DNA from: Thiovibrio frasassiensis
GTDB lineage: Bacteria; Desulfobacterota; Desulfobulbia; Desulfobulbales; Desulfurivibrionaceae
Assembly: GCF_029607905.1 (NCBI RefSeq)
Contig: NZ_JAPHEH010000001.1
Span: 649,530 to 713,529, forward strand
DNA: 64,000 bases
Direction: 5' to 3'
The notes beneath the pieces were generated by a model. The model saw only the letters and a list, made by a program, of their open reading frames with translations, had not been told where the DNA came from and made no database searches. Every line of letters begins with the position of its first letter. Position 1 is the first letter of the stretch. A program made the position numbers and the translations under genes. Shown here piece after piece: positions 18,230 through 30,927 of this stretch.

Positions 18230-18760
18230 ATGACCACATTTATGACTCGGATGATTCGCGCGGCAAAATTGGATGTCCATCTATATGAAGAGGTTGAGGC
18301 GGACAAAGGCGCAATGCGGCAGGCCATGGGGGTTGTGGTTATTTCCAGTGTCGCCGCAGGCGTGGGCAGCATTGGCACCATGGGGATTGGCGGAATTCTG
18401 TTCGGAACGGTTGCCGCCCTTGTCGGCTGGTATATCTGGGCCTACCTCACCTATTTTATCGGCACAAAACTCCTGCCGGAACCGCAAACCGAAGCCGATC
18501 TTGGCCAATTGCTGCGCACCACCGGTTTTTCCAGTTCCCCTGGGTTGCTGCGCATCTTAGGAATCATCCCGGGGGTGGGCTCGGTGCTCTTTGCCGCAAT
18601 TTCCGTCTGGATGCTGGTGGCCATGGTGATCGCGGTCAGGCAGGCCCTTGATTACACCGGGACCTTGCGGGCCGTTGGTGTTTGCGTCATCGGCTGGATC
18701 GTTCAGACCGTAATCCTGATGGTATTGTTCTCGTTGGCGGGCGGCCCCCCAGCATTTTGA
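18230..18760 (+). CDS. YIP1-family membrane protein
   Basis: 176 residues with about four to five membrane segments, an N-terminal amphipathic part (LDVHLYEEVEADKGAMRQA) and the GVGSIG...YFIGTKLLPEPQTEADLGQLLRTTGFSSSPG core seen in bacterial YIP1-domain proteins. Members are integral membrane proteins of unknown bacterial function. A well-placed GGAGCT precedes the start. A second small membrane gene follows 63 bp later. Confidence 0.85.
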   Translation: MTTFMTRMIRAAKLDVHLYEEVEADKGAMRQAMGVVVISSVAAGVGSIGTMGIGGILFGTVAALVGWYIWAYLTYFIGTKLLPEPQTEADLGQLLRTTGFSSSPGLLRILGIIPGVGSVLFAAISVWMLVAMVIAVRQALDYTGTLRAVGVCVIGWIVQTVILMVLFSLAGGPPAF

Positions 18761-19690: not shown

Positions 19691-21757
19691 CTACGATTGC
19701 GGACCGGTTTTCGCCGAGAGAATGTCTGCACCCCAGCGTATCCGCCATAGAGCAAGGGCCAACAGATCGTTGTGTTTCTGCACTACCTGCGCCATGGCAG
19801 GAGGAGAGCCATGCTCCCTGCTCCATGGCAGTGGGGACGCCACCATTCCATCAAGATCGAGCAGATAATCAGCGGTAATGGCCCGACCTTTTTCGATTCC
19901 GAGAAATTCAGGCGAAGGAGCAAGCAGGTTTTTACCAAGGGCATGGTACATGAAGCCCCTAGGCGCAGCCAATTCTATCAAGGTGGCAGCAATATCCTTG
20001 TGGGAGCCGGCAACATTGTCCGGCAGCCGTTTCCCTGCCAGAACCTTGGGCCCGTAAAGGACGAAAGGTACAGACACCCCCTCGTAAAAGCCAACCCGCC
20101 CCCCGGGATACCAACGACCAAAATGATCGCCGGTAACCGCAACGAGGAGGGAAGGAAATCTTTTCTCCATACCGCGGGCGAATGTGCCGATGCAGTGATC
20201 CGCATACCAGAGATGCCCCAGATGCTTGAGGTTTTCCTCCCCGGCAAAGCGCGCCTGCAGTTCGGCCGGGAGCTCGGGGGGCTTGAACCCCTTGGCCTGG
20301 GTGTCGACATTATACGGGGAATGATTTGATGTCGTCAGAATGATATTGAAGCTGGGAAGATCATCGCTGACAGTACGTTCCGCAAACTTGAAGATCTCTT
20401 CATCATCGACCCCCCATTCCTTTCGCTCGCCACCCAACGCCATATCCGCGCCACCATATATCTCCTCAAACCCCTGATGCTTACAAAAATCACCGATATT
20501 TTGCCAGCTCAGGTAGCCCCCGTAAAAGAATCTGGTTTTGTAGCCCAAGCGACGAAAGATCTCCGGCATCGAGGTGGGATAGGGGGTCAGCCCGGATTGC
20601 TGGTAGTTTGCCATAATCCCCGAAAATGGCATACCGGTGAGAATAGCGCCGAAAGAGCTCATGGTGCCGTTGGCGGCAGCCATGAAGGGAACCACCCGCA
20701 GCCCATCCTTGGCCAAAGCCCGCAATTCATTGGTTACCCCGAGGGGGGCAAATTGCTCCTGCAGGGGCCAAGCATCGTAACTTTCCCCGACAATAAGGAA
20801 GATGTGCCGTGGAGCCTGGCTCCCAACCCCGAGCGCATACCGTTTCAGCGCATTGTCGATATTGCCCTCCGCCTTCCCGCCTGTTGCCCTGGTCACCGCC
20901 TGCTCGATATCATTAGTGGGGAGATAGCAGTGAATATTCCCGCCCTCAATCGTCTCGAGGTGATTTTCAATGGCGTACTTCAGGGCGACAAAGGGGTTGA
21001 TGGTCGCTTTATTGAGAAAGCCATCGCGGGTGATGGCTGAATCCTTAAGCTGAATCGGACGACTGCCGAAAGAGCCCCGGACACCGCCGGCCAGGAGAAT
21101 GGCAACCAGGGAAAAGAAGATCCACCGACTCGGGGTCGTCCTGGTCAGGGAGGCAAGCAGATGATCCGGCAGGAGAGGTCGGGCGAGCACTTTTCTGGAG
21201 ATCCTCAAACCGACAAGCAGCAACAGGATTCCGGCGCACAATTCGAGGACAACATGATACTGGGCGTAGATGGTTTTGGCGATGGCCGAGGGGTCGTCAT
21301 AATACAACCCGAAAAGCCATTGATTGAACAGATCATCGTATTCCTTAAAATAACCGATGGCGATGCGGCCCAGCACCACAATGCACCCCCAGAACAGGAC
21401 CCCCATGAAGAGGCGGAGCCGCTCGGTACGGTGTTCCCAATCGATAAAACCGGAGATCAAGGTCAGGGAAAAGGAGGGGACCAGGGCCAGGGTCGCCACT
21501 TTGGAGTCGAACCGGAAGCCGATCTCCAGGGATTGCCAGATGGTGTGCCAGCTGCTGTTTTCGGCGATTCGCGTTGAAAATACCGCCAGGAACAGAAGAC
21601 GGTAGAGGGTAAGCAGCAGAATGCTGACCAGCCAGAAACTCCCGTCACGGGAGAGCTGGCGGGAGAAGCGAGGCCAGCTCAACTCCACTGCCCCGGCAAT
21701 CCGATTTCCCTGTTCTCTGATCAGCTTGACCGCCCAAGCCGTGAATCCTCTAGACAT
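19691..21757 (-). CDS. LTA synthase-like sulfatase-family membrane protein
   Basis: 688 residues with five N-terminal membrane helices (about residues 35-220) and a large periplasmic alkaline-phosphatase-superfamily domain. The catalytic region shows IFLIVGESYDAWPLQ (metal Glu), NGTMSSFGAILTGMPFSG with the Thr nucleophile, FFYGGYLSWQNIGDF, and VTGDHFGRWYPG with the metal Asp-His. Such proteins transfer phosphoglycerol or phosphoethanolamine between lipids and glycans. In a Gram-negative cell the acceptor may be periplasmic glucan or LPS (inference). Confidence 0.88.
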   Translation of the reverse strand: MSRGFTAWAVKLIREQGNRIAGAVELSWPRFSRQLSRDGSFWLVSILLLTLYRLLFLAVFSTRIAENSSWHTIWQSLEIGFRFDSKVATLALVPSFSLTLISGFIDWEHRTERLRLFMGVLFWGCIVVLGRIAIGYFKEYDDLFNQWLFGLYYDDPSAIAKTIYAQYHVVLELCAGILLLLVGLRISRKVLARPLLPDHLLASLTRTTPSRWIFFSLVAILLAGGVRGSFGSRPIQLKDSAITRDGFLNKATINPFVALKYAIENHLETIEGGNIHCYLPTNDIEQAVTRATGGKAEGNIDNALKRYALGVGSQAPRHIFLIVGESYDAWPLQEQFAPLGVTNELRALAKDGLRVVPFMAAANGTMSSFGAILTGMPFSGIMANYQQSGLTPYPTSMPEIFRRLGYKTRFFYGGYLSWQNIGDFCKHQGFEEIYGGADMALGGERKEWGVDDEEIFKFAERTVSDDLPSFNIILTTSNHSPYNVDTQAKGFKPPELPAELQARFAGEENLKHLGHLWYADHCIGTFARGMEKRFPSLLVAVTGDHFGRWYPGGRVGFYEGVSVPFVLYGPKVLAGKRLPDNVAGSHKDIAATLIELAAPRGFMYHALGKNLLAPSPEFLGIEKGRAITADYLLDLDGMVASPLPWSREHGSPPAMAQVVQKHNDLLALALWRIRWGADILSAKTGPQS

Positions 21758-21864
21758 TGCTTCCTCTTCTCTTCATTGCATACTCCCCGTGGCATATACC
21801 CGACTTCCAGCAATATGTCTATTTGTCTCGTGTATTCAAAGCGTTGCCTCGCGAACTACCCCCC

Positions 21865-22968
21865 CTACCCCTCTCCCAGCAGCAACCCCAGGTTGCCGGT
21901 GTGCGCCTCGGCTCCAACCCCCTTGTGGATCACCAGCTGTTTCCCCTCCCGCTGCCCGGCCTGATAGATGTCTCCATGCACCCGAGGTCCGGCGTGCTGC
22001 ACGGTGCGGAGGCGGGGATAGCGACCCCGGTAGTAGCGGATCAGGCCCGGATCGGCGGCGCAGATCAGACTGCTTGCGGTATCGTTACCGCTGGTGTGCA
22101 TGACCTGCCGCTCCTGGCCGGCGAGCTTTTCCCGAAACCCGTTCAACACCCCCAGCCAATAGGAATTCTTCTCTTTGCCCAAAGCCCCCGTGCTTTTCCG
22201 GTACTCCCGCCAGAGATACTCCAGCCGGTGGCGGAGAAAATGATACACATGCTCGGCCACGGCCAGATTTTCCTTGGCGCCGGTCAGCTCGATCACCCGC
22301 AGGGTTTCCCCGCTCAATGCCTCATACTGCCGGGCAATGACCACATTGACATAGAAAAAATCCTTGAGGATTGCGGCAATGAGCCGCTGGTGGGCGACGA
22401 TCCGCTTCCCGCCGGGCTTGATGATCAGGTAATCATACTCAGAGGGGGTCTGGCGGTCGAGCCGCTCGAGGTTGTAACGCCGGAGGATAGCGTTGGCCTT
22501 CTCCATGGCCAGGGACGCCTCGTGGACGTTGGCGCTCTGGGCCAAGGCAAAAAGTTTTTCCACCCTGGCCAGCATCCCCCCGGAGCGCTGCTCCTCCTTG
22601 CTGAGCAAGCGCGGGATCGCCCCTTGGGCGCTGCGAAACTCCGGGTGCACCCCCAGCCGGTCGCACGCCTCCTGAAAGGCCGGGCCGTGGGGCAACTCAT
22701 CCCCCCGCCCCATGTGCGCGACATACTGGTGGCTCATCTCATGCTTCAACACCTCCAGAACCACATCCCAGGAATGCTCCCGGATCAGCCAGGAGGCCAG
22801 GCTGAGGGTGTCGAGCCCCGATGACCAGGAGCCGGCCCGGCCCTGGCCCTCGCTGATCTCAAAGAGCGGAGTCGTAAGCTGCACCCGGTACAGCCAGCAG
22901 AGATGACGGTACTCCTGGGCCAGCTGCCGGCGCCAACCCTCCATGAGGAGGCTCTCTTGTTCGCTCAC
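21865..22968 (-). CDS. SprT-like metalloprotease-type/DUF2786 protein
   Basis: 367 residues. The N-terminal part has a zinc-metalloprotease motif HEMSHQYVAH (HExxH-like, with Met-Ser) in a SprT-like context, with PHGPAFQEACDRLGV after it. The middle has the DUF2786 block MLARVEKLFALAQSANVHEASLAMEKANAILRR in two overlapping parts (KLFALAQS, EASLAMEKAN). The C-terminal third is helical with no recognised domain. It is 14 bp downstream of rnhA on the same strand. A function in protein or DNA-protein turnover is possible but not shown. Confidence 0.85.
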   Translation of the reverse strand: MSEQESLLMEGWRRQLAQEYRHLCWLYRVQLTTPLFEISEGQGRAGSWSSGLDTLSLASWLIREHSWDVVLEVLKHEMSHQYVAHMGRGDELPHGPAFQEACDRLGVHPEFRSAQGAIPRLLSKEEQRSGGMLARVEKLFALAQSANVHEASLAMEKANAILRRYNLERLDRQTPSEYDYLIIKPGGKRIVAHQRLIAAILKDFFYVNVVIARQYEALSGETLRVIELTGAKENLAVAEHVYHFLRHRLEYLWREYRKSTGALGKEKNSYWLGVLNGFREKLAGQERQVMHTSGNDTASSLICAADPGLIRYYRGRYPRLRTVQHAGPRVHGDIYQAGQREGKQLVIHKGVGAEAHTGNLGLLLGEG

Positions 22969-22982
22969 CCGCGCTCCCCTCT

Positions 22983-23687
22983 TTAGCCCTTGTACCCCGA
23001 ATCCACCGGCAGATCGGCGAGCCGGGACGAGGCCACGGCCAGTTCATCGCAACGCTCGTTAAAGGGATTGCCGTTATGCCCCTTGACCCAATTGAAGGTG
23101 ATGTTAAGCCCCTCGATAAGATCCAGCAGCTGACCCCAAAGATCGGGGTTGACCGCAGGCTGCCGGTCCGACTTGATCCAGCCCCGTTTCCGCCAGCTCT
23201 TGGCCCACCCCTTGCTGATCCCGTTCACCACATAGCTGGAATCGGAATAGAGGGCCACCGGCTTGTCCCGGTGCTCCAGTTCGCGCAGGGCCACGATGCA
23301 GCCCATCAGCTCCATCCGGTTATTGGTGGTCAAGCGGAAGCCGCCGGAAAGCTCCTTGCGCGCACCGTTGTAAACCTGGACGATGCCGTAGCCGCCCGGC
23401 CCGGGATTGTAGCGGGCACCGCCATCGGTGTAAATGGAGACCACCCCGTCGCGAGGGGAGGTGTCCGCGCCTGCCCCGGAACTCGACTTCAGCGCGGGCT
23501 TGCTGCTTCCCGGTCCGGATTGGCCCGAAGTGGGGTTCTTCAACCAAGCCTCGGCCTCATCCCGGGTGGCAAAACCTTTGAAGCGAGCGCCCTGAAAGCC
23601 AATGACCTGGGCTTGGGCCTTGGGCCAGTTGTCATAGATGCCAGGCACCCGGCCGGCCAAGATTGCGTAGAATTTCTTTGCTGCCAT
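22983..23687 (-). CDS. rnhA: Ribonuclease HI with N-terminal hybrid-binding domain
   Basis: 234 residues. The N-terminal 45 residues (KFYAILAGRVPGIYDNW, FKGFATRDEAEAWL) are a viroplasmin/RNase H1 N-terminal domain that binds RNA-DNA hybrids, as in eukaryotic-type RNase H1. A flexible Ser/Gly linker follows, then the catalytic RNase H domain: SIYTDGGARYNPG (Asp), NNRMELMG (Glu), LYSDSSYV (Asp) and NERCDELA (Asp). It removes RNA from RNA-DNA hybrids. Cotranscribed with the DUF2786 gene. Confidence 0.95.
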   Translation of the reverse strand: MAAKKFYAILAGRVPGIYDNWPKAQAQVIGFQGARFKGFATRDEAEAWLKNPTSGQSGPGSSKPALKSSSGAGADTSPRDGVVSIYTDGGARYNPGPGGYGIVQVYNGARKELSGGFRLTTNNRMELMGCIVALRELEHRDKPVALYSDSSYVVNGISKGWAKSWRKRGWIKSDRQPAVNPDLWGQLLDLIEGLNITFNWVKGHNGNPFNERCDELAVASSRLADLPVDSGYKG

Positions 23688-23750
23688 GTCTGGATTGTCC
23701 TTGTTTTTGTTGCCAAGCTGTTTCAGCAGCCAGAGAGATACACTTTATTT

Positions 23751-23977
23751 TTCTGTTCATTTCTTTGCTGGACTTTATGCCCTTTAGGGTACAAAGAAAC
23801 GAACCAAAGAAAGGGCACCCTGTTTCTCTTGTCCCGCCTTTGGCGGGATGCCCGGAGTTTATGCCCCGGAGGGGTACTCCTCGATGCTGCCGGGGCTTTG
23901 CAAACTCGGCTTCGCCTCAAACAGTGCAAATCCCCTTTTCGGCAGCCTCTCCGGTGCTCGGCTGCGTGCCAATGGGA
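23751..23977 (+). repeat. Dispersed structured repeat, copy B (227 bp)
   Basis: Same element as 4635-4822. It has two extra hairpin inserts: one after TTTCTTTGCT (ACTTTATGCCCTTTAGGGT) and one in the middle (GAGTTTATGCCCCGGAGGGG). Outside these it is nearly identical to copy A. It lies directly downstream of the rnhA start region and faces the related element at 24006-24170. Confidence 0.85.
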
Positions 23978-24005
23978 TTTCTCTCTCCCCCCATTTGTCC
24001 TGCCG

Positions 24006-24170
24006 CGCCTCGCAGGCGGGGGCGGAAAAGACGCTAAAACTGTTTGAGGGCGAAGCCCGAGTTTTTTAGCGTCCCGCCCTCGGCGAGAAGTAAGGGAAGC
24101 CCGCAGGGCCAGGACTGGCTGGGGTGCCTTTTTCTTGTTTCTTCTTTTGGGCACGCAAAAGAAGAAAAAG
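24006..24170 (-). repeat. Related structured repeat, second type
   Basis: Read on the minus strand it opens with CTTCTTTTGCGTGCCCAAAAGAAG and later GGCACCCC, the same order as the opening of the first repeat type (TTTCTTTGCGTGCCCAAAGAAA...GGGCACCCT). The body differs: a long hairpin GACGCTAAAA...TTTTAGCGTC encloses GGGCTTCGCCC, and CGCCTCGCAGGCG closes it. It points toward copy B, so the two elements are convergent. Confidence 0.7.
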
Positions 24171-24284
24171 CTCCCCTCTTGCCCCATTCCCCAATTTCAA
24201 CTATGTTGCCCAAGCAAGAATACACCATCGCGACAAAGCCGAAAACAGCGATGATCTTATCCCCCTCGCATCCAGGTGAAAAAA

Positions 24285-24452
24285 ATGAAACTCTTTGTCA
24301 CGCCCAAAGGCGACCGCTGGCTCTGTTCCGAATGTGAAGAGGATTTCAGGGAGACCATCACCGAAGAAGGGTGGCGGGTGGCCTTTACCAAGATCGACCC
24401 CATGCTCCGCTGTTCCGAATGCAAACATGGCGACATCGAAATCTTTGATTAG
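24285..24452 (+). CDS. Tiny zinc-ribbon-like protein (55 aa)
   Basis: The 55-residue frame starts MKLFVTPKGDRW and ends GDIEIFD. It has AGGTG six bases before the ATG. Two CSEC motifs (Cys14/Cys17 and Cys43/Cys46) are spaced like the knuckles of a small zinc ribbon. The stop is 11 bp before the start of the radical SAM gene, so the two are very likely cotranscribed and perhaps translationally coupled. Not recognised as a named family. Confidence 0.75.
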   Translation: MKLFVTPKGDRWLCSECEEDFRETITEEGWRVAFTKIDPMLRCSECKHGDIEIFD

Positions 24453-24463
24453 TCCCGCGATCA

Positions 24464-25327
24464 TTGAAAAAATTCAAGAAGATATACCTTGAGATCACCA
24501 ACCGCTGCAATCTTTCCTGCAGCTTTTGCCACCAGAGCGAGCGGGCCAAAGGTTTCATCCGGGTGGAGAATTTCCGCGCCATCCTCCGCAACATCGAGGG
24601 TCACACCGACCATCTTGCCCTGCATGTGCTGGGCGAGCCCCTGTTGCACCCGGAACTCGGCGAGATCCTCGCCCTCTGCCGAGAATACAACTTCAAGGTC
24701 AACCTGACCACCAACGGCACCCTGCTCCCCCAGCGTCAAGAGCTGCTGCTGACCAGCCCGGCCCTGCGCCAGATCAACATCTCCCTGCACAGCTTCAGCG
24801 AACAGGAGACCCATCCCCCATTGGCCGCTTATCTCGCCGGGATCTTCGGTTTCCTCCGGGAGGCGGCTGCCACCGATTTATTGATCAGTCTGCGGTTCTG
24901 GAATCTGCCGGCAATGGAGACCAATCTTCCGTCCGCCAACGACCCCATCCTCAAAGCGCTTGAATCCTTTTTCGGGCTGCCCGAGCCGCTGGCCACCAGA
25001 CTCACCCCCGGCCACGGCATCACCCTGGCGCCAAAAGTTTTCCTGAGCCAAAACCCTCGCTTCACCTGGCCCCATGGACCCGCCCCGGACCTGGGCGACA
25101 AGGGAACCTGCCGGGGCCTGCGGGATCATGTCGCCATCCTGGTGGACGGCACCGTGGTCCCCTGCTGTCTCGATGCTGAGGCGGATATTGCCCTGGGCAA
25201 CATCCACGAACAATCCCTGCCCGAGATCATCAACTCCCCGCGCGCCGAGGCCATGCGCACCGGCTTTAGCCAACGCCGCCTTACTGAGCCCCTCTGCCGC
25301 CGCTGCACCTTCCGCCAAATATTCTAG
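24464..25327 (+). CDS. Radical SAM/SPASM-type protein
   Basis: 287 residues from a TTG start (KKFKKIYLEITNRCNLSC). The radical SAM cluster motif is CNLSCSFC (CxxxCxxC), followed by HVLGEPLLHPEL and LTTNGTLL. The C-terminal part has cysteines typical of a reduced SPASM/twitch region: DKGTCRGL, VVPCCLDAEADIALGNI and CRRCTF. Such enzymes modify peptides or act on small molecules; the substrate is unknown. Its immediate partner is the 55-residue zinc-ribbon gene just upstream. No strong ribosome binding site precedes it. Confidence 0.88.
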   Translation: MKKFKKIYLEITNRCNLSCSFCHQSERAKGFIRVENFRAILRNIEGHTDHLALHVLGEPLLHPELGEILALCREYNFKVNLTTNGTLLPQRQELLLTSPALRQINISLHSFSEQETHPPLAAYLAGIFGFLREAAATDLLISLRFWNLPAMETNLPSANDPILKALESFFGLPEPLATRLTPGHGITLAPKVFLSQNPRFTWPHGPAPDLGDKGTCRGLRDHVAILVDGTVVPCCLDAEADIALGNIHEQSLPEIINSPRAEAMRTGFSQRRLTEPLCRRCTFRQIF

Positions 25328-25398
25328 CTCATCCTCACAACTCCCTAATCTGACTTGCAAACATTAAAACCCAAAACTTTTCGTCTTATAGCCGTTAA

Positions 25399-25603
25399 TC
25401 CCATTGACCCGCAGCCGAGCACCGGAGAGGCTGCCGAAAAAGGGCTTTGCACTGTTTGAGCGAAGCGAGTTTGCAAAGCCCCGGCAGCATCGAGAAGTCC
25501 CCGCAGGGGATAAACTCCGGGCATCCCGCCAAAGGCGGGACAAGAGACACAGGGTGCCCTTTCTTTGGTTCGTTTCTTTGGGCACGCAAAGAAATGAACA
25601 GAA
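25399..25603 (-). repeat. Dispersed structured repeat, copy C (205 bp)
   Basis: Reverse-strand copy of the element at 4635-4822 and 23751-23977, with the same TTCTGTTCATTTCTTTG start. It has the simple first loop of copy A but keeps a middle hairpin insert (GAGTTTATCCCCTGCGGGGACTTC). It fills most of the gap between the radical SAM gene and rlmN, and may act as a shared transcription end for these convergent genes (inference). Confidence 0.85.
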
Positions 25604-25648
25604 GAAAGACTATCTTCCTCTTGTTGCTGAATGTTGTTTGCACCCAGA

Positions 25649-26752
25649 TCAACTCTTCCCCGCCAGCTGACCGCAGGCCGCAGAGATATCTCCGCCCCGA
25701 CTCTGCCGGATAAAGGTGTTAAACCCCGCTTCGCGCAGCACCTTCTGAAAGGCAAGGGTCTGCGCCGCATCCGGGCAGGCAAACTCCGTTTCCCCGGAGC
25801 CGTTGTAGGGCAGCAGGTTGATCCGGCTGGGGATACCCTGCAGCTTTTCCGCCAGCAGATGCGCATCAGCCAACGAATCGTTGATCCCCTTGAGCATGAT
25901 GTACTCGAAAAGAATCACCTTTTTTTTCCCCAGCGGATACCTGCGGCAGGCAGCGAGCAGCGCTTCCAAGCCATAGGTTGTGTTCACCGGCATCAGGCGG
26001 CTGCGGACCGCATCATCGGCGGCGTGCAGCGACACGGCGAGATTGACCCGGATGTCCCGCCCCAAATCGTCCATCCTCGGCACGATGCCGCAGGTGGAAA
26101 CAGTGATCCGCCGTTCGGAAAAGCCGAGGCCATGGTCATCCATGAGGATCGTCAGCGCAGCCAGGAGAGTGTCATAATTGGCCAGGGGTTCGCCCATGCC
26201 CATGAAAACCAGGTTGTTGAGCAGCTCCCGCGGCGTGGCCCGCTGAATCCCGTTTTCGACCATATGGGCCATCACCGCCAGGACCTGGCCCACGATCTCG
26301 GCGGGGCGCAGATTGCGGACAAAGCCCTGTCCCCCGGTGAGGCAAAAGCGGCAGCCCATGGCGCAGCCCGCCTGGGAGGAGATGCACAGGGTATGGCGAC
26401 CGTCTTCTGGGATAAGCACACTCTCGATCACTGCGCCGTCCGCGAGGCGGAAGGCGAATTTCTCGGTGCCGTCCGCCGATTTTTCCACCGTCGCGGGTTC
26501 AAGACTGCTCATGCTGGCGTGTTTTGCCAGCAGCTCCGTCACCTCCCGGCTGATGCCGAGTTGGGCAAAATCGCGCACCCCGGGGTGGTACAGCCGGGTA
26601 AAGATCTGTCGCGCCCGCTTGGCAGGCAACCCCAGGGAGACGACATAATCGCGCAACCGGTCCGGGGTAAGATCGCGCAGGTCGGTCTGGCCGCCCTTGG
26701 CCGAGACTGTTTCCACCCCGCCCTCCATCGCTTGTTTTGGCTGCATCTTCAT
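25649..26752 (-). CDS. rlmN: Dual-specificity 23S/tRNA adenine C2-methyltransferase RlmN
   Basis: 367 residues from the ATG at 26752, which has AGAGGG in front; the frame extends to 26881, but that part is not conserved. This radical SAM enzyme methylates A2503 of 23S rRNA and A37 of some tRNAs. It has the cluster motif CAMGCRFCLTGGQGF, GMGEPLANYD, VNLAVSLHAADDAVRSRLMPVN, and the C-terminal catalytic Cys in RGGDISAACGQL. Divergent from the TetR-type regulator. Confidence 0.95.
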   Translation of the reverse strand: MKMQPKQAMEGGVETVSAKGGQTDLRDLTPDRLRDYVVSLGLPAKRARQIFTRLYHPGVRDFAQLGISREVTELLAKHASMSSLEPATVEKSADGTEKFAFRLADGAVIESVLIPEDGRHTLCISSQAGCAMGCRFCLTGGQGFVRNLRPAEIVGQVLAVMAHMVENGIQRATPRELLNNLVFMGMGEPLANYDTLLAALTILMDDHGLGFSERRITVSTCGIVPRMDDLGRDIRVNLAVSLHAADDAVRSRLMPVNTTYGLEALLAACRRYPLGKKKVILFEYIMLKGINDSLADAHLLAEKLQGIPSRINLLPYNGSGETEFACPDAAQTLAFQKVLREAGFNTFIRQSRGGDISAACGQLAGKS

Positions 26753-26839
26753 CCACCCTCTGTAACACATTTCCGCCCCTGTTTCAAAGGATAGCCGAAG
26801 GGAAGCCGGCCCCAAAAACCCCTTGACGCGGCAAGATAA

Positions 26840-26865
26840 ATAAATCAAATATACATTTAACTTAT
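26840..26865. promoter_or_regulatory. Dyad operator upstream of the TetR-type regulator
   Basis: A 26-bp imperfect palindrome (20 of 26 positions symmetric) starting ATAAATCAAAT and ending ATTTAACTTAT. It lies 20-45 bp before the GTG start of the regulator and downstream of TTGACG (26823-26828). Likely autoregulatory site of the TetR-type protein. Confidence 0.5.
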
Positions 26866-26884
26866 TACGCAAAGGAAACACCCC

Positions 26885-27562
26885 GTGAGAAAACTACGAA
26901 GCGACGGCCAGGAAACCCGCCAGAACCTGCTGGCGGCCGCAGGCAGGATCTTTGCCGCCAAAGGCTTTCGCGATACCACCATCGCCGAGATCTGCCAGCA
27001 GGCAGGGGCCAACACCGCCGCGATCAGCTACCATTTCGGCAGCAAGGAAGCCCTCTATGCGGAGAGCTGGCGCTATGCCTTCACCGAGTCGCTGAACCTC
27101 TATCCCCCCGATGGCAGCATTCCGCCGGACGCCCCCCCGGAAAAACGCCTGCGGGGCCGGATTCTCGCGATCATGCGGCGGATCGTGGACCCGCAAAGCC
27201 ATGATTTCGACATCTTCCACAAGGAAATGGCAAACCCCACCGGCCTGTTGGCCCAGGCCATGCAGGAGTCGGTGGAACAGATTTTCAAGGGCCTCAGTCT
27301 TCTGGTGGGAGAATTGCTCGGAAAGGAGCCCCACGAATCCGAGGTGCAGCTCTGCGCCATGAGTATCCGGGCCCAGTGTTTCGGCCCGTTGCTTCTCGCC
27401 CGCCGCCGCAAGGCGGATCAAGGCCTCTTCACCACCGGCGTTGAACCCCTGCTCGATGATGTGGAGCAGTTGGCCGATCATGTCACCCGCTTCAGCCTGG
27501 CGGGCATCCGTGCACTTCACCCCCTACACCATCAACAGTCTCTCGTCGAGGTTGACTCATGA
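26885..27562 (+). CDS. TetR-family regulator with CecR-type C-terminal domain
   Basis: 225 residues from a GTG. The N-terminal helix-turn-helix is typical (LLAAAGRIFAAKGFRDTTI, ICQQAGANTAAISYHFGSKEALY), and the C-terminal ligand domain matches the CecR/DUF1956 type (DFDIFHKEMANPTG). In E. coli CecR controls an ABC exporter. Here the gene overlaps by 4 bp (ATGA) the first gene of a tripartite exporter operon, so it probably represses that operon in the absence of an inducing compound. Confidence 0.9.
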   Translation: MRKLRSDGQETRQNLLAAAGRIFAAKGFRDTTIAEICQQAGANTAAISYHFGSKEALYAESWRYAFTESLNLYPPDGSIPPDAPPEKRLRGRILAIMRRIVDPQSHDFDIFHKEMANPTGLLAQAMQESVEQIFKGLSLLVGELLGKEPHESEVQLCAMSIRAQCFGPLLLARRRKADQGLFTTGVEPLLDDVEQLADHVTRFSLAGIRALHPLHHQQSLVEVDS

Positions 27563-28854
27563 AACACCCGGCCAAGAAAGCCCTGATCATTCTGATCGCC
27601 GCACTGCTTCTCGGCAGCCTCGCCACCTGGCAGCTGACCCGCAGCAAGGCGAAGAATGGCGCCGGTTACCGGACCGCCGAACTGACCCGCGGGGATCTGC
27701 TGGTGACCATCAGCGCCACCGGCACCGTGGAGCCGGAGGAGGTCATCGACGTCGGCGCCCAGGTGGCCGGACGGATCGTTTCCTTCGGCAAGGATGCCCA
27801 CGATAAAACCGTGGATTACGGCTCACTGGTCGAGGCGGGCACGGTGCTGGCCCGGATCGACGACTCGCTCTACGCGGCGGACGTGACCCAGGCCGAGGCC
27901 CAGCTCATGTCGAACAAGGCCGGCTTGCAAAAGGCCAAGGCCGACTTGAACCAGGCGGAGCTGAACTGGAAACGGGCCCAACTCCTCGGCTCCTCCCAGG
28001 CCCTGTCGCAATCGGCCTACGAATCCTACGAATCGGCGCATACAACCGCGCTGGCCCAGGTGGCGGTGAGCGAGGCCTCCATCCGCCAAGGGGAGGCGGC
28101 CCTGGCCCGCGCCCGGCGCAACCTGGGGTACTGCACCATCACCTCGCCGGTCAAGGGCATCATCATCGACCGCAGGGTCAACACCGGCCAGACCGTGGTG
28201 GCGAGCCTCAATGCCCCGAGCCTCTTCCTGCTGGCCAAGGATCTTACCCGCATCCAGGTCTGGGTAGCGGTGAACGAGGCGGATATCGGCAGAATCCAAC
28301 CCGGCCAGCCGGTGACCTTTACGGTGGATGCCTTTCCCAACGAAACCTTCACAGGCGAGGTGGGCAAGATCCGACTCAACGCCTCCATGACCCAGAACGT
28401 AGTGACCTACACGGTGGAGATCACCACCGACAACACGGATGGCCGCTTGCTGCCCTATCTCACCGCCAACGTGCTCTTTCAGCTGCAGCAGGTGCGCGAC
28501 GTCCTGCAGGCGCCCAATGCGGCCCTGCGCTGGAGCCCGCCCGCCTGGGAAGGCGAGGCAGAACCCGGCAAGAAAAAAAGCGGGATAAAAGAAAGCAAAA
28601 AAGCATCCTCCGCCCCAGAACCGGGCAAGAAAAGCGGCAGCCTCTGGGTGCTGGACAAGGACCGGAAGCCACGCCGGATCGCGGTCCTGACCGGAGCCAG
28701 CGACGGCACCAACACCGTGGTGGAGAGCATGGAGCTGCGCGAGGGGATGCAGGTCATCACCGGGATACGCATCTCCGAAACGGAAAAGAGCGCGGGGGGC
28801 AGCCCTTTCACCCCGCAGTTCGCCCGCGGCAACAAGGCCAAGGCAGAGAAGTAG
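27559..28854 (+). CDS. Periplasmic adaptor (MacA-like, HlyD family)
   Basis: 431 residues with an N-terminal membrane anchor (KKALIILIAALLLGSL), a lipoyl/barrel-sandwich domain (GTVEPEEVIDVGAQVAGRI), a helical hairpin (about residues 105-190) and beta-barrel and membrane-proximal domains (SPVKGIIIDRRVNTGQTVV). It bridges the ABC transporter and the outer-membrane channel. Unusually, a Lys/Pro/Glu-rich insert of about 35 residues (about 335-370) interrupts the C-terminal membrane-proximal domain just before SGSLWVLDKDRKP. Second gene of the exporter operon. Confidence 0.92.
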   Translation: MKHPAKKALIILIAALLLGSLATWQLTRSKAKNGAGYRTAELTRGDLLVTISATGTVEPEEVIDVGAQVAGRIVSFGKDAHDKTVDYGSLVEAGTVLARIDDSLYAADVTQAEAQLMSNKAGLQKAKADLNQAELNWKRAQLLGSSQALSQSAYESYESAHTTALAQVAVSEASIRQGEAALARARRNLGYCTITSPVKGIIIDRRVNTGQTVVASLNAPSLFLLAKDLTRIQVWVAVNEADIGRIQPGQPVTFTVDAFPNETFTGEVGKIRLNASMTQNVVTYTVEITTDNTDGRLLPYLTANVLFQLQQVRDVLQAPNAALRWSPPAWEGEAEPGKKKSGIKESKKASSAPEPGKKSGSLWVLDKDRKPRRIAVLTGASDGTNTVVESMELREGMQVITGIRISETEKSAGGSPFTPQFARGNKAKAEK

Positions 28855-28861
28855 AGCAGCC

Positions 28862-29563
28862 ATGAACCTCATCGAACTGCACGGTATCGAAAAAACCTAC
28901 CAGATGGGCGACATCTCCGTGCCCGTGCTGAAGGGCATCTCCCTTTCCATCCGGCAAGGAGAGCTGGTCGCGCTCACCGGCTCGTCCGGCTCCGGGAAAT
29001 CCACGCTGATGAACATCCTCGGCTGCCTGGACCGGCCCAGCGCAGGCGAATACTGGCTGGACGGCCAGGAGACCTCCACCCTCTCCACCGATGAGCGGGC
29101 CCTGCTCCGCAACCGCAAGCTGGGCTTCGTCTTCCAGAGCTTCAATCTCCTGGCCCGAACCAGCGCCATCGAGAATGTGGCCATGCCGCTCACCTATGCC
29201 GCCGAACCCTTGAGCGAACGCGAAGCCAGGGAGCGGGCCGCCGAGATGCTTAACCGGGTTGGCTTGGGTGACCGGCTGGACCATCATCCCTCGCAGCTTT
29301 CCGGCGGCCAGCAGCAGCGGGTGGCCATCGCCCGGGCCCTGATCAACCGCCCGCCGGTGCTTTTTGCCGACGAACCCACCGGCAACCTGGATTCCAAGAC
29401 CAGCGAAGAGGTGCTCAAGATGTTCGAGCGGCTCAACAGCGAAGACAAGATCACCATCATCATGGTAACCCACGACCCAAAGGTAGCCGGACACGCCAAA
29501 CGGATGATCCGCATGGAAGACGGGGTGATCCGAAACGATGCCCCCCCGGGAGGCAGGCCATGA
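28862..29563 (+). CDS. ABC transporter ATPase, MacB-type
   Basis: 233 residues. Walker A GSSGSGKST, Q-loop FVFQSFNLL, signature LSGGQQQRVAIARAL, Walker B PPVLFADEPTGNLD and H-loop VTHDP are all intact. It is of the LolD/MacB type that powers mechanotransmission exporters. It is separate from the permease, unlike fused E. coli MacB, and overlaps it by 4 bp. Confidence 0.94.
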   Translation: MNLIELHGIEKTYQMGDISVPVLKGISLSIRQGELVALTGSSGSGKSTLMNILGCLDRPSAGEYWLDGQETSTLSTDERALLRNRKLGFVFQSFNLLARTSAIENVAMPLTYAAEPLSEREARERAAEMLNRVGLGDRLDHHPSQLSGGQQQRVAIARALINRPPVLFADEPTGNLDSKTSEEVLKMFERLNSEDKITIIMVTHDPKVAGHAKRMIRMEDGVIRNDAPPGGRP

Positions 29564-30927
29564 TGGTCTACACCACCGCCCGCACCGCCTTCCGCGCCCT
29601 GCGCCGCAATCCCTTGCGGGCCATGCTCACCACCCTGGGCATTGTCATCGGCGTGGGCGCGGTCATCGCCATGATGGAGATCGGGGCCGGGGCCTCGGCG
29701 GCGCTGAAAAAAACCATCGCCAGCATGGGGGCCAATGTCCTGGTAATCCGACCCGGCACCGCCTCGAGCGGCGGAGTCTCCTTCGGCGCCGGCTCCACCA
29801 CCACCCTGACTCCGGAAGACAGCCTCGCTATCCTGCGGGAATGCCCGGCGGTACGCAACGCCACCCCCATGGTCCGGGCCCGGACCCAGGTGGTCTACGG
29901 CAACCGCAACTGGGTGCCCAACGCCATCTACGGCACCACCCCGGCCTATCTCGATGTCCAGGACTGGTCCATTCTCGCCGAGGGCGAGCCCTTCAGCGAC
30001 CGGGATGTCTTAAACGGCAACCGGGTCTGCATCCTGGGCAAAAGCCTGGTCCGGGAGCTCTTCGAGGGCGAGTCGGCGGTGGGCAAGGAGATCCGGATCA
30101 AGAACATCGCCTTTCGGGTGATCGGGGTGCTCACCCCCAAAGGCGCCAACATGATGGGTTTTGACCAGGACGATGTCATCCTCGCCCCCTGGACCACCAT
30201 CAAGTACCGGGTTACCGGCGCCAGCCTCTCGACCGCCAACCAGAGCACCGCCACCGCCGCCGATTCGGTGAACACCCTCTCCAATCTCTACCCCACGGCC
30301 CAGCGCAGCCTCTACCCGGAACGCTCCGCCGTCCAGCAAGCCAACAATCCCATGCCGGTGCGCTTCGCCAATATCGACCAGATCATGGCCGCGGCCAACA
30401 GCTCGGCGGAGATTCCCTTGGCCATCGAACAGATCGCCGGGGTCCTCCGAGAACGGCACCGCATCCGCAACGGCGAGCCGGACGATTTCAACATCCGCGA
30501 CATGGCCGAGCTCACCAAAACCCTCTCCACCACCACCAGCCTGATGACCAACCTGCTGCTGGCGGTGGCCATGATCTCCCTGGTCGTGGGCGGGGTGGGA
30601 ATCATGAACATCATGCTCGTTTCGGTTACCGAACGCACCCGGGAGATCGGGCTGCGCATGGCGGTCGGCGCCCGGGGCAAAGACATCCTCCGCCAGTTTT
30701 TGGTGGAAGCGGTGGTCCTCTGCCTCACCGGCGGGGCCATGGGCATCGTCCTCGGCCACGGCGGCTCCCTGCTGGTCAAGCTCCTGCTCAAGTGGCCGGT
30801 GGAGACCTCGCCCGCGGCCATCGCTACGGCGGTACTGGTTTCCGCCGGGGTGGGGATCATCTTCGGCTTTTATCCGGCCTGGAAGGCCTCCCGCCTTGAT
30901 CCCATCGAAGCGCTCCGTTATGAATAA
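29560..30927 (+). CDS. ABC transporter permease, MacB-type
   Basis: 455 residues. An N-terminal helix (RNPLRAMLTTLGIVIGVGAVIAM) is followed by a periplasmic MacB_PCD domain of about 230 residues and three C-terminal helices of the FtsX domain (MTNLLLAVAMISLVVGGVGIMNIMLVSVTERTREIGLRMAVGA...). It carries substrates from the periplasm to the MacA/TolC conduit. The periplasmic domain is a little longer than usual, with a Ser/Thr-rich stretch at about 225-250. Operon with the ATPase and adaptor. Confidence 0.93.
   Translation: MMVYTTARTAFRALRRNPLRAMLTTLGIVIGVGAVIAMMEIGAGASAALKKTIASMGANVLVIRPGTASSGGVSFGAGSTTTLTPEDSLAILRECPAVRNATPMVRARTQVVYGNRNWVPNAIYGTTPAYLDVQDWSILAEGEPFSDRDVLNGNRVCILGKSLVRELFEGESAVGKEIRIKNIAFRVIGVLTPKGANMMGFDQDDVILAPWTTIKYRVTGASLSTANQSTATAADSVNTLSNLYPTAQRSLYPERSAVQQANNPMPVRFANIDQIMAAANSSAEIPLAIEQIAGVLRERHRIRNGEPDDFNIRDMAELTKTLSTTTSLMTNLLLAVAMISLVVGGVGIMNIMLVSVTERTREIGLRMAVGARGKDILRQFLVEAVVLCLTGGAMGIVLGHGGSLLVKLLLKWPVETSPAAIATAVLVSAGVGIIFGFYPAWKASRLDPIEALRYE

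Follow-up and report, generated by a model that had tools for sequence, protein, structure and literature searches.

A small four-cysteine protein gene and a SPASM/twitch radical SAM gene probably form a genus-specific pair of independently conserved families

The window, that is, the whole stretch of 64,000 nucleotides analysed here, carries two closely spaced genes on the plus strand, and the reading frames and coordinates of both were confirmed. The upstream gene (S, 24285..24452) encodes by translation a 55-aa protein with four cysteines in two CxxC pairs, starts with ATG and is preceded by an AGGTG-type ribosome site. The downstream gene (R, 24464..25327) starts with TTG and encodes a 287-aa radical SAM protein with a SPASM/twitch C-terminus, as assigned by Pfam and alignment. 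The 11 bp between the S stop and the TTG of R (24453..24463, plus strand) contain no Shine-Dalgarno (SD) core. A sequence-only reading had described a 55-residue protein with two CSEC motifs ending 11 bp before a TTG-started radical SAM/SPASM gene that has no ribosome site of its own, and coordinates, Pfam domains and the missing SD core all agree with this description. The neighbouring genes, identified by Pfam, lie on the minus strand: a SprT-like/DUF2786/DUF7168 protein (21865..22968), 1.3 kb from S; an RNase HI with a Cauli_VI domain (22983..23687), which is found in synteny with the pair across the genus; and an RlmN-type methyltransferase (25649..26881, Radical_SAM and RlmN_N domains), convergent with R. 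A scan for promoters and terminators found none, and window positions 20000-30000 contained no known RNA element. Among 15 related loci, two RNA matches reached the gathering score, a group II intron on contig L126 and Acido-Lenti-1 on L066, and neither is tied to the pair. Further upstream, window positions 18230-18760 encode a 176-aa protein that has no Pfam match at E 0.01; at E 1e-10 it has counterparts, 50-85% identical and in scattered families, in 27 of the order's 193 genomes.

A dispersed intergenic repeat of ~200 bp flanks the pair. Both copies were found by blastn, one upstream (23792..23979, minus strand) and one downstream in the opposite orientation (25395..25610, plus strand). 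The genome holds 29 matching stretches, 22 of which cover at least 144 of the 216 bases. Oppositely oriented flanking repeats could make the pair a mobile cassette, a reading favoured by the two copies in the window, to which we nevertheless give hardly any credence. Across the 17 pair loci of the genus, a copy between R and rlmN was found in this window only; none was found downstream of R in the 16 other genomes, and rlmN follows R in all 17. The upstream copy recurs in 11 of the 16 other loci. Since the downstream repeat is confined to this window, flanking by repeats is incidental, and the cassette is largely refuted. The earlier description of the pair as isolated between repeat copies is accurate for the window, but its downstream boundary is not shared by the syntenic loci.

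R matches Radical_SAM (PF04055) with 56.4 bits against a cut-off of 29.5, and SPASM (PF13186) with 63.5 bits against 21.5. The three cysteines of the CX3CX2C cluster motif (C15, C19, C22) and five further cysteines (C216, C234, C235, C278, C281) are invariant in 30/30 aligned sequences. By motif and PF04055 match, R is assigned to the radical SAM superfamily, and its C-terminal SPASM domain with predicted auxiliary-cluster cysteines assigns it to the SPASM/twitch subclass. The 2.84 Mb genome has 45 radical SAM matches, R included. A Pfam scan with E up to 1 returned just SPASM, Radical_SAM and a weak DUF5937, with no precursor-binding domain, and none of the best 25 of 78 NCBIfam families reached its cut-off. 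The best NCBIfam match listed was TIGR04317, a tungsten-cofactor oxidoreductase maturase family, at 76.7 bits versus 380. All 30 members of the R set (A3) matched it, with a best E of 6.3e-22; R was rejected as a TIGR04317 equivalog because its score lies below the curated cut-off. Against PHROGs, R matched radical SAM families only, and against PADLOC it matched viperin models (E 2.8e-16, residues 7-115). S matched nothing in either collection, and a phage or defence role was set aside on these results.

The structural model of R (pLDDT 85.6) was compared with solved folds. Of the 1000 aligned chains, BtrN ranked first (21% identity over 222 residues, Z 21.1, rmsd 2.7); the next different protein was SuiB (Z 17.1), and SkfB reached Z 16.4. 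A profile search also placed BtrN first (E 8e-16), with domain E-values of 2.6e-9 for the radical SAM part and 0.004 for the auxiliary CxxC part. A two-cluster SPASM domain has more C-terminal cysteines than R. The cysteine count and the BtrN-like fold of the model suggest one auxiliary [4Fe-4S] cluster, as in twitch enzymes, rather than the two of a full SPASM domain. We place R in the SPASM/twitch class of radical SAM enzymes as a new member, probably of the oxidase/dehydrogenase type.

In S, the two CSEC motifs occupy residues 14-17 and 43-46, giving the CxxC pairs C14/C17 and C43/C46. We aligned 41 sequences, drawn from genomes both with and without R. Residues M1, G9, D10, W12, C14, C17, W30, L41, R42, C43, C46, and D55 are among those invariant in 41/41, and conservation spans the full length, to the invariant D55 at the end. 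No pattern of conserved leader and variable core was seen in this alignment. For the window copy, all 13 Pfam families listed were below cut-off (YjdM ribbon, 15.9 bits versus 30.8), and over the 41 members the best E was 0.001 among the best 25 of 56 families. The model of S (pLDDT 91.3) shows the order strand-strand-helix-helix-strand, with a helix following the first CxxC. A search of solved folds with this model returned no clear match (Foldseek best E 2.3, VIA best Z 2.3), which is not evidence of a new fold. From its conserved cysteines, S is probably a small metal-binding Cys4 protein; this is a sensible reading, with zinc as a candidate metal.

In the window's genus the two genes are tightly paired. 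S lies immediately 5' of R in 17/17 genomes, with a gap of 11 bp in 13 of them, 10 bp in one, 6 bp in two, and 171 bp in one. The pair is no chance occurrence: the S copies of the 16 other genomes share 75-96% identity with that of the window, and pairwise differences over 18 loci (the 17 of the genus plus L126) fall mostly at the third codon position (875/295/2088 at positions 1/2/3). The gene order rnhA, S, R, rlmN is common to the genus loci; rnhA precedes S in 13 of the 14 loci whose contig reaches at least 850 bases upstream, the exception being L122. The shared synteny and the invariable adjacency indicate that the arrangement probably arose in one ancestral event. One genome of the collection (G015) has a second S copy, which ends 20 bases before a contig end (L028, L120).

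Outside the genus the two genes are mostly apart. In the order, S matched in 91/193 genomes and R in 47/193, the latter count being based on the best 12 candidates scored per genome, so that distant relatives fall outside it. After the weak matches in G030 and G150 were dropped, the strong S set comprised 89 genomes, 51 of which are without R. Conversely, 9 of the 47 R genomes are without strong S, including four rated 95-99% complete (G030, with its weak match, G038, G044, and G084). R occurs in 30 genomes outside the genus and strong S in 21 of these; in 19 of the 21, match coordinates place the genes on different contigs. In G025, which belongs to the same family and another genus, S and R are 4.2 kb apart with rnhA and a SprT-like gene between them. 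R adjoins rnhA there without S in between, so R's place does not need S. In G053 the genes are 197 bases apart on contig L126, the sole adjacent case of the 21. L126 carries the gene order of the genus, with neighbours about 80-88% identical to the genus's own; most simply it is a stray (mis-binned) contig, or it may reflect a recent transfer. This contig (MGTA01000208.1) is 7.8 kb long, sits in a different family's bin and has its group II intron RNA match at 420-550. We fetched R loci from 21 of the 30 R genomes outside the genus, and S was near R in just one, that of G025 (L072). The conserved neighbourhood that the sequence-only reading had named as its check was therefore not found beyond the genus, and its proposal of S as a dedicated chaperone, cofactor or substrate of R is unsupported, S not lying beside R elsewhere.

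Both families appear to be centred on the order. In a sample of 297 genomes of the phylum, the 2 with S both belong to the order, and so do two of the 3 with R at E 1e-50 or better, the third lying outside it; the R count took the best 8 candidates per genome at this strict threshold, and distant relatives fall outside it. Records matching S are named, for example, Desulfobulbaceae, Desulfurivibrio, Desulfocapsa, or Desulfobulbus, and many just Deltaproteobacteria or Proteobacteria. One record named Aminicenantes (L175, JAOZUQ010000104.1) contains an S match nearly identical to Desulfobulbales-type copies (L173), probably through a binning error. The literature searches turned up no paper dealing with S or with the R family.

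We then compared the start regions. R starts with TTG and has no SD core in 18/18 genus loci (17 plus L126). Of 21 R genes from other genera, none directly preceded by S, 14 start with TTG; 4 have an SD core and 17 lack it, a frequency close to that in random 20-mers (36 of 390). For comparison, an SD core occurs in 7/8 control genes of the window, and before S genes in 33/41 cases in other genera and 10/18 in the genus loci. A TTG start without SD core is thus a property of R in general. Since it is seen in most R genes that no S precedes, the weak start is R's own and not a sign of coupling to S, and the clue to coupling that had been read from it is lost. Re-initiation after S may exist in the window's genus, but it is not what shaped the weak start of R. 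R genes combining TTG, no SD core and A-rich first codons are found whatever lies upstream (L072, L092-L111, and 24464 in the window), and in several R loci in-frame stops a few codons upstream leave little room for an alternative start. Codons 2-7 of R are A-rich, with a GC3 of 0.38 versus 0.72-0.76 later in the gene, a comparison within 36 R genes with no other genes as control. Single-sequence folds of 23 stretches upstream of R showed, by eye, no shared leader structure.

Despite their separation, S and R occur together across genera more often than expected by chance. By genus, S is present in 16/20 genera with R versus 13/42 others (Fisher p 0.0004), where a genus counts as positive if any sampled genome is, which favours well-sampled genera; sampling was uneven and the tests are tree-free. 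By genome, with the window's genus and G053 left out, the counts are 20/29 versus 51/146 (p 0.0009). Two control genes of the window gave p 0.45 and 0.41 by genus, the first being present in 9 genera only and so having little power. A family-stratified test observed 15 against 11.5 expected (p 0.012, exact one-sided 0.004); it covered 52 of the 62 genera, with families typed from listings, leaving out one genus with a suspect contig (g27) and nine absent from the listings. We regard the S-R co-occurrence signal as mild; it keeps a loose functional link between S and R possible. The coupling claimed from the sequence accordingly stands in part: the pair is tight in the genus and the genes co-occur beyond chance, but adjacency is lost outside it.

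One explanation of this signal is that S and R serve one process, S being a small Fe- or Zn-binding Cys4 protein, for example an electron donor or cluster assembler for R, and that the genus brought the genes together because of the shared process. The co-occurrence by genus and by family stratum, set against null controls, argues for it, as do the tight spacing in the genus, the apparent rarity of both genes among the phylum genomes outside the order, and the weak matches to rubredoxins that the S profile gives in the PDB (E about 0.3). However, rubredoxin is not known to have a helix of the kind seen after the first CxxC in the S model, the R genomes without strong S and the more numerous S genomes without R do not fit a shared process, and the genus-level counts are biased by uneven sampling. 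We consider this explanation unlikely. A more specific form, which we rate as less probable again, would place R in a new class of twitch radical SAM dehydrogenases centred on Desulfobulbales, with S as its dedicated helper, either donating electrons or serving as cluster or metal partner; the genus would have fixed a translationally coupled pair, and another carrier would replace S where it is missing.

The surroundings of the two genes in other genera were compared over 20 S loci and 20 R loci. The neighbour tables are rough, as greedy ORF calls gave some false antisense genes in GC-rich loci. No constant partner of S and no constant neighbour of R was found among these loci, and the neighbour clusters near both genes are few and generic, such as ABC ATPases (near S in 2 loci, near R in 6) and DEAD-box helicases (near S in 3, near R in 2). 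S has its own recurrent partners in some groups. In family f12, several records of which are named Desulfocapsa or Desulfocapsaceae, S adjoins an M23 peptidase gene in 37/42 loci, some being the same genome twice, and an RNase E/G gene usually comes next. A dihydrouridine synthase gene follows S in six loci, and LptF, like the M23 peptidase gene, is a recurrent neighbour of S in a family other than that of the window; we take the M23 peptidase gene and LptF as housekeeping genes. In G114, G132, G148, and G172, all from one other family (L182, L184, L185, L186), the gene immediately 5' of S, on the same strand, is a relative of the SprT gene. S was considered as the detached zinc ribbon of a SprT-like protein; we rejected this, leaving it as an idea, because most S loci examined are not beside a SprT gene. 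The SprT ribbon model was touched weakly by 2/41 S members (best E 0.0029). Hand-picked S neighbours include enzymes acting on nucleic acids (RNase H, RNase D-like, SbcD, RecQ, RlmL, Dus, a pseudouridine synthase, and SprT), three proteins without Pfam match, and unrelated proteins (SIS isomerase, rubrerythrin, TetR, a sigma-54 activator, SCO1, LptF, M23 peptidase, and an EAL protein). As the neighbours were hand-picked and others are unrelated, the nucleic-acid theme is only a hint.

These loci also bear on a substrate role, in which R would be a SPASM-type maturase and S the ribosomally made peptide that it modifies. A small four-cysteine gene directly upstream of a radical SAM/SPASM gene has the look of such a pair, and the fold of R also matches the maturases SuiB and SkfB. 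Against this, S is conserved over its full length, with no leader or variable core even when genomes without R are aligned; the Pfam scan with E up to 1 detects no precursor-binding domain in R; and no peptidase or exporter is constant beside R, the ABC ATPase genes being limited to the 6/20 loci mentioned. With adjacency confined to the genus and L126, a RiPP precursor-maturase pair was rejected, and we judge the substrate role highly improbable.

Taken together, we consider it probable that the pair is a genus-specific bicistron of two independently conserved families centred on the order; the two parts would not form an obligate machine, and their pairing most likely reflects a local arrangement of genes. 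Three observations run against full independence: the co-occurrence beyond chance, the proximity within 4.2 kb in G025, and the 11-bp gap kept in 13/17 genomes. In the preferred reading, R would be a radical SAM enzyme acting on its own and is predicted to carry one auxiliary [4Fe-4S] cluster. The enzyme would most likely abstract a hydrogen from its substrate through a 5'-deoxyadenosyl radical and then pass the second electron to the auxiliary cluster, as proposed for BtrN. S carries a ribosome site of its own, and its gene partners change from group to group and include some nucleic-acid enzymes. In the ancestor of the genus, S would have come to lie just upstream of R, and ribosomes leaving the S stop may now help the weak TTG start of R.

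Both families are centred on a single order of sulfur bacteria. R stands for a radical SAM subfamily that scores below cut-off for each of the best 25 of 78 NCBIfam families, and S for a family of small proteins that no Pfam model matches at cut-off. Knowing that the pairing is specific to one genus should keep annotators from treating S as a partner of radical SAM enzymes. That most R genes start with TTG and lack a ribosome site is an oddity in its own right.

Among known systems, S shares the two CxxC pairs with small zinc-ribbon and treble-clef proteins, and differs from them in that Pfam models stay below cut-off, fold searches give no convincing hit, and the predicted order of elements is strand-strand-helix-helix-strand. 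The zinc ribbon of the sequence-only reading accordingly stays putative, with four cysteines in two CxxC pairs. The SPASM RiPP maturases SuiB and SkfB have in common with R the overall fold (Z 17.1 and 16.4) and the SPASM Pfam domain. R is shorter than maturases of this type, lacks a precursor-binding domain in the Pfam scan, and has no small gene conserved beside it outside the genus. The best match of R in both sequence and fold is BtrN, the 2-deoxy-scyllo-inosamine dehydrogenase, a twitch radical SAM enzyme. A review describes BtrN as a twitch enzyme in which four cysteines hold the single auxiliary cluster, the proposed acceptor of the second electron (PMC9012708). R differs from BtrN by one additional invariant cysteine (CC at 234-235), and identity is ~21% over the aligned part. 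The likeness is one of fold and profile and does not imply the BtrN reaction, the oxidation of DOIA in butirosin synthesis; what the two proteins have in common is the radical SAM cluster motif and a C-terminal region ending in CxxC.
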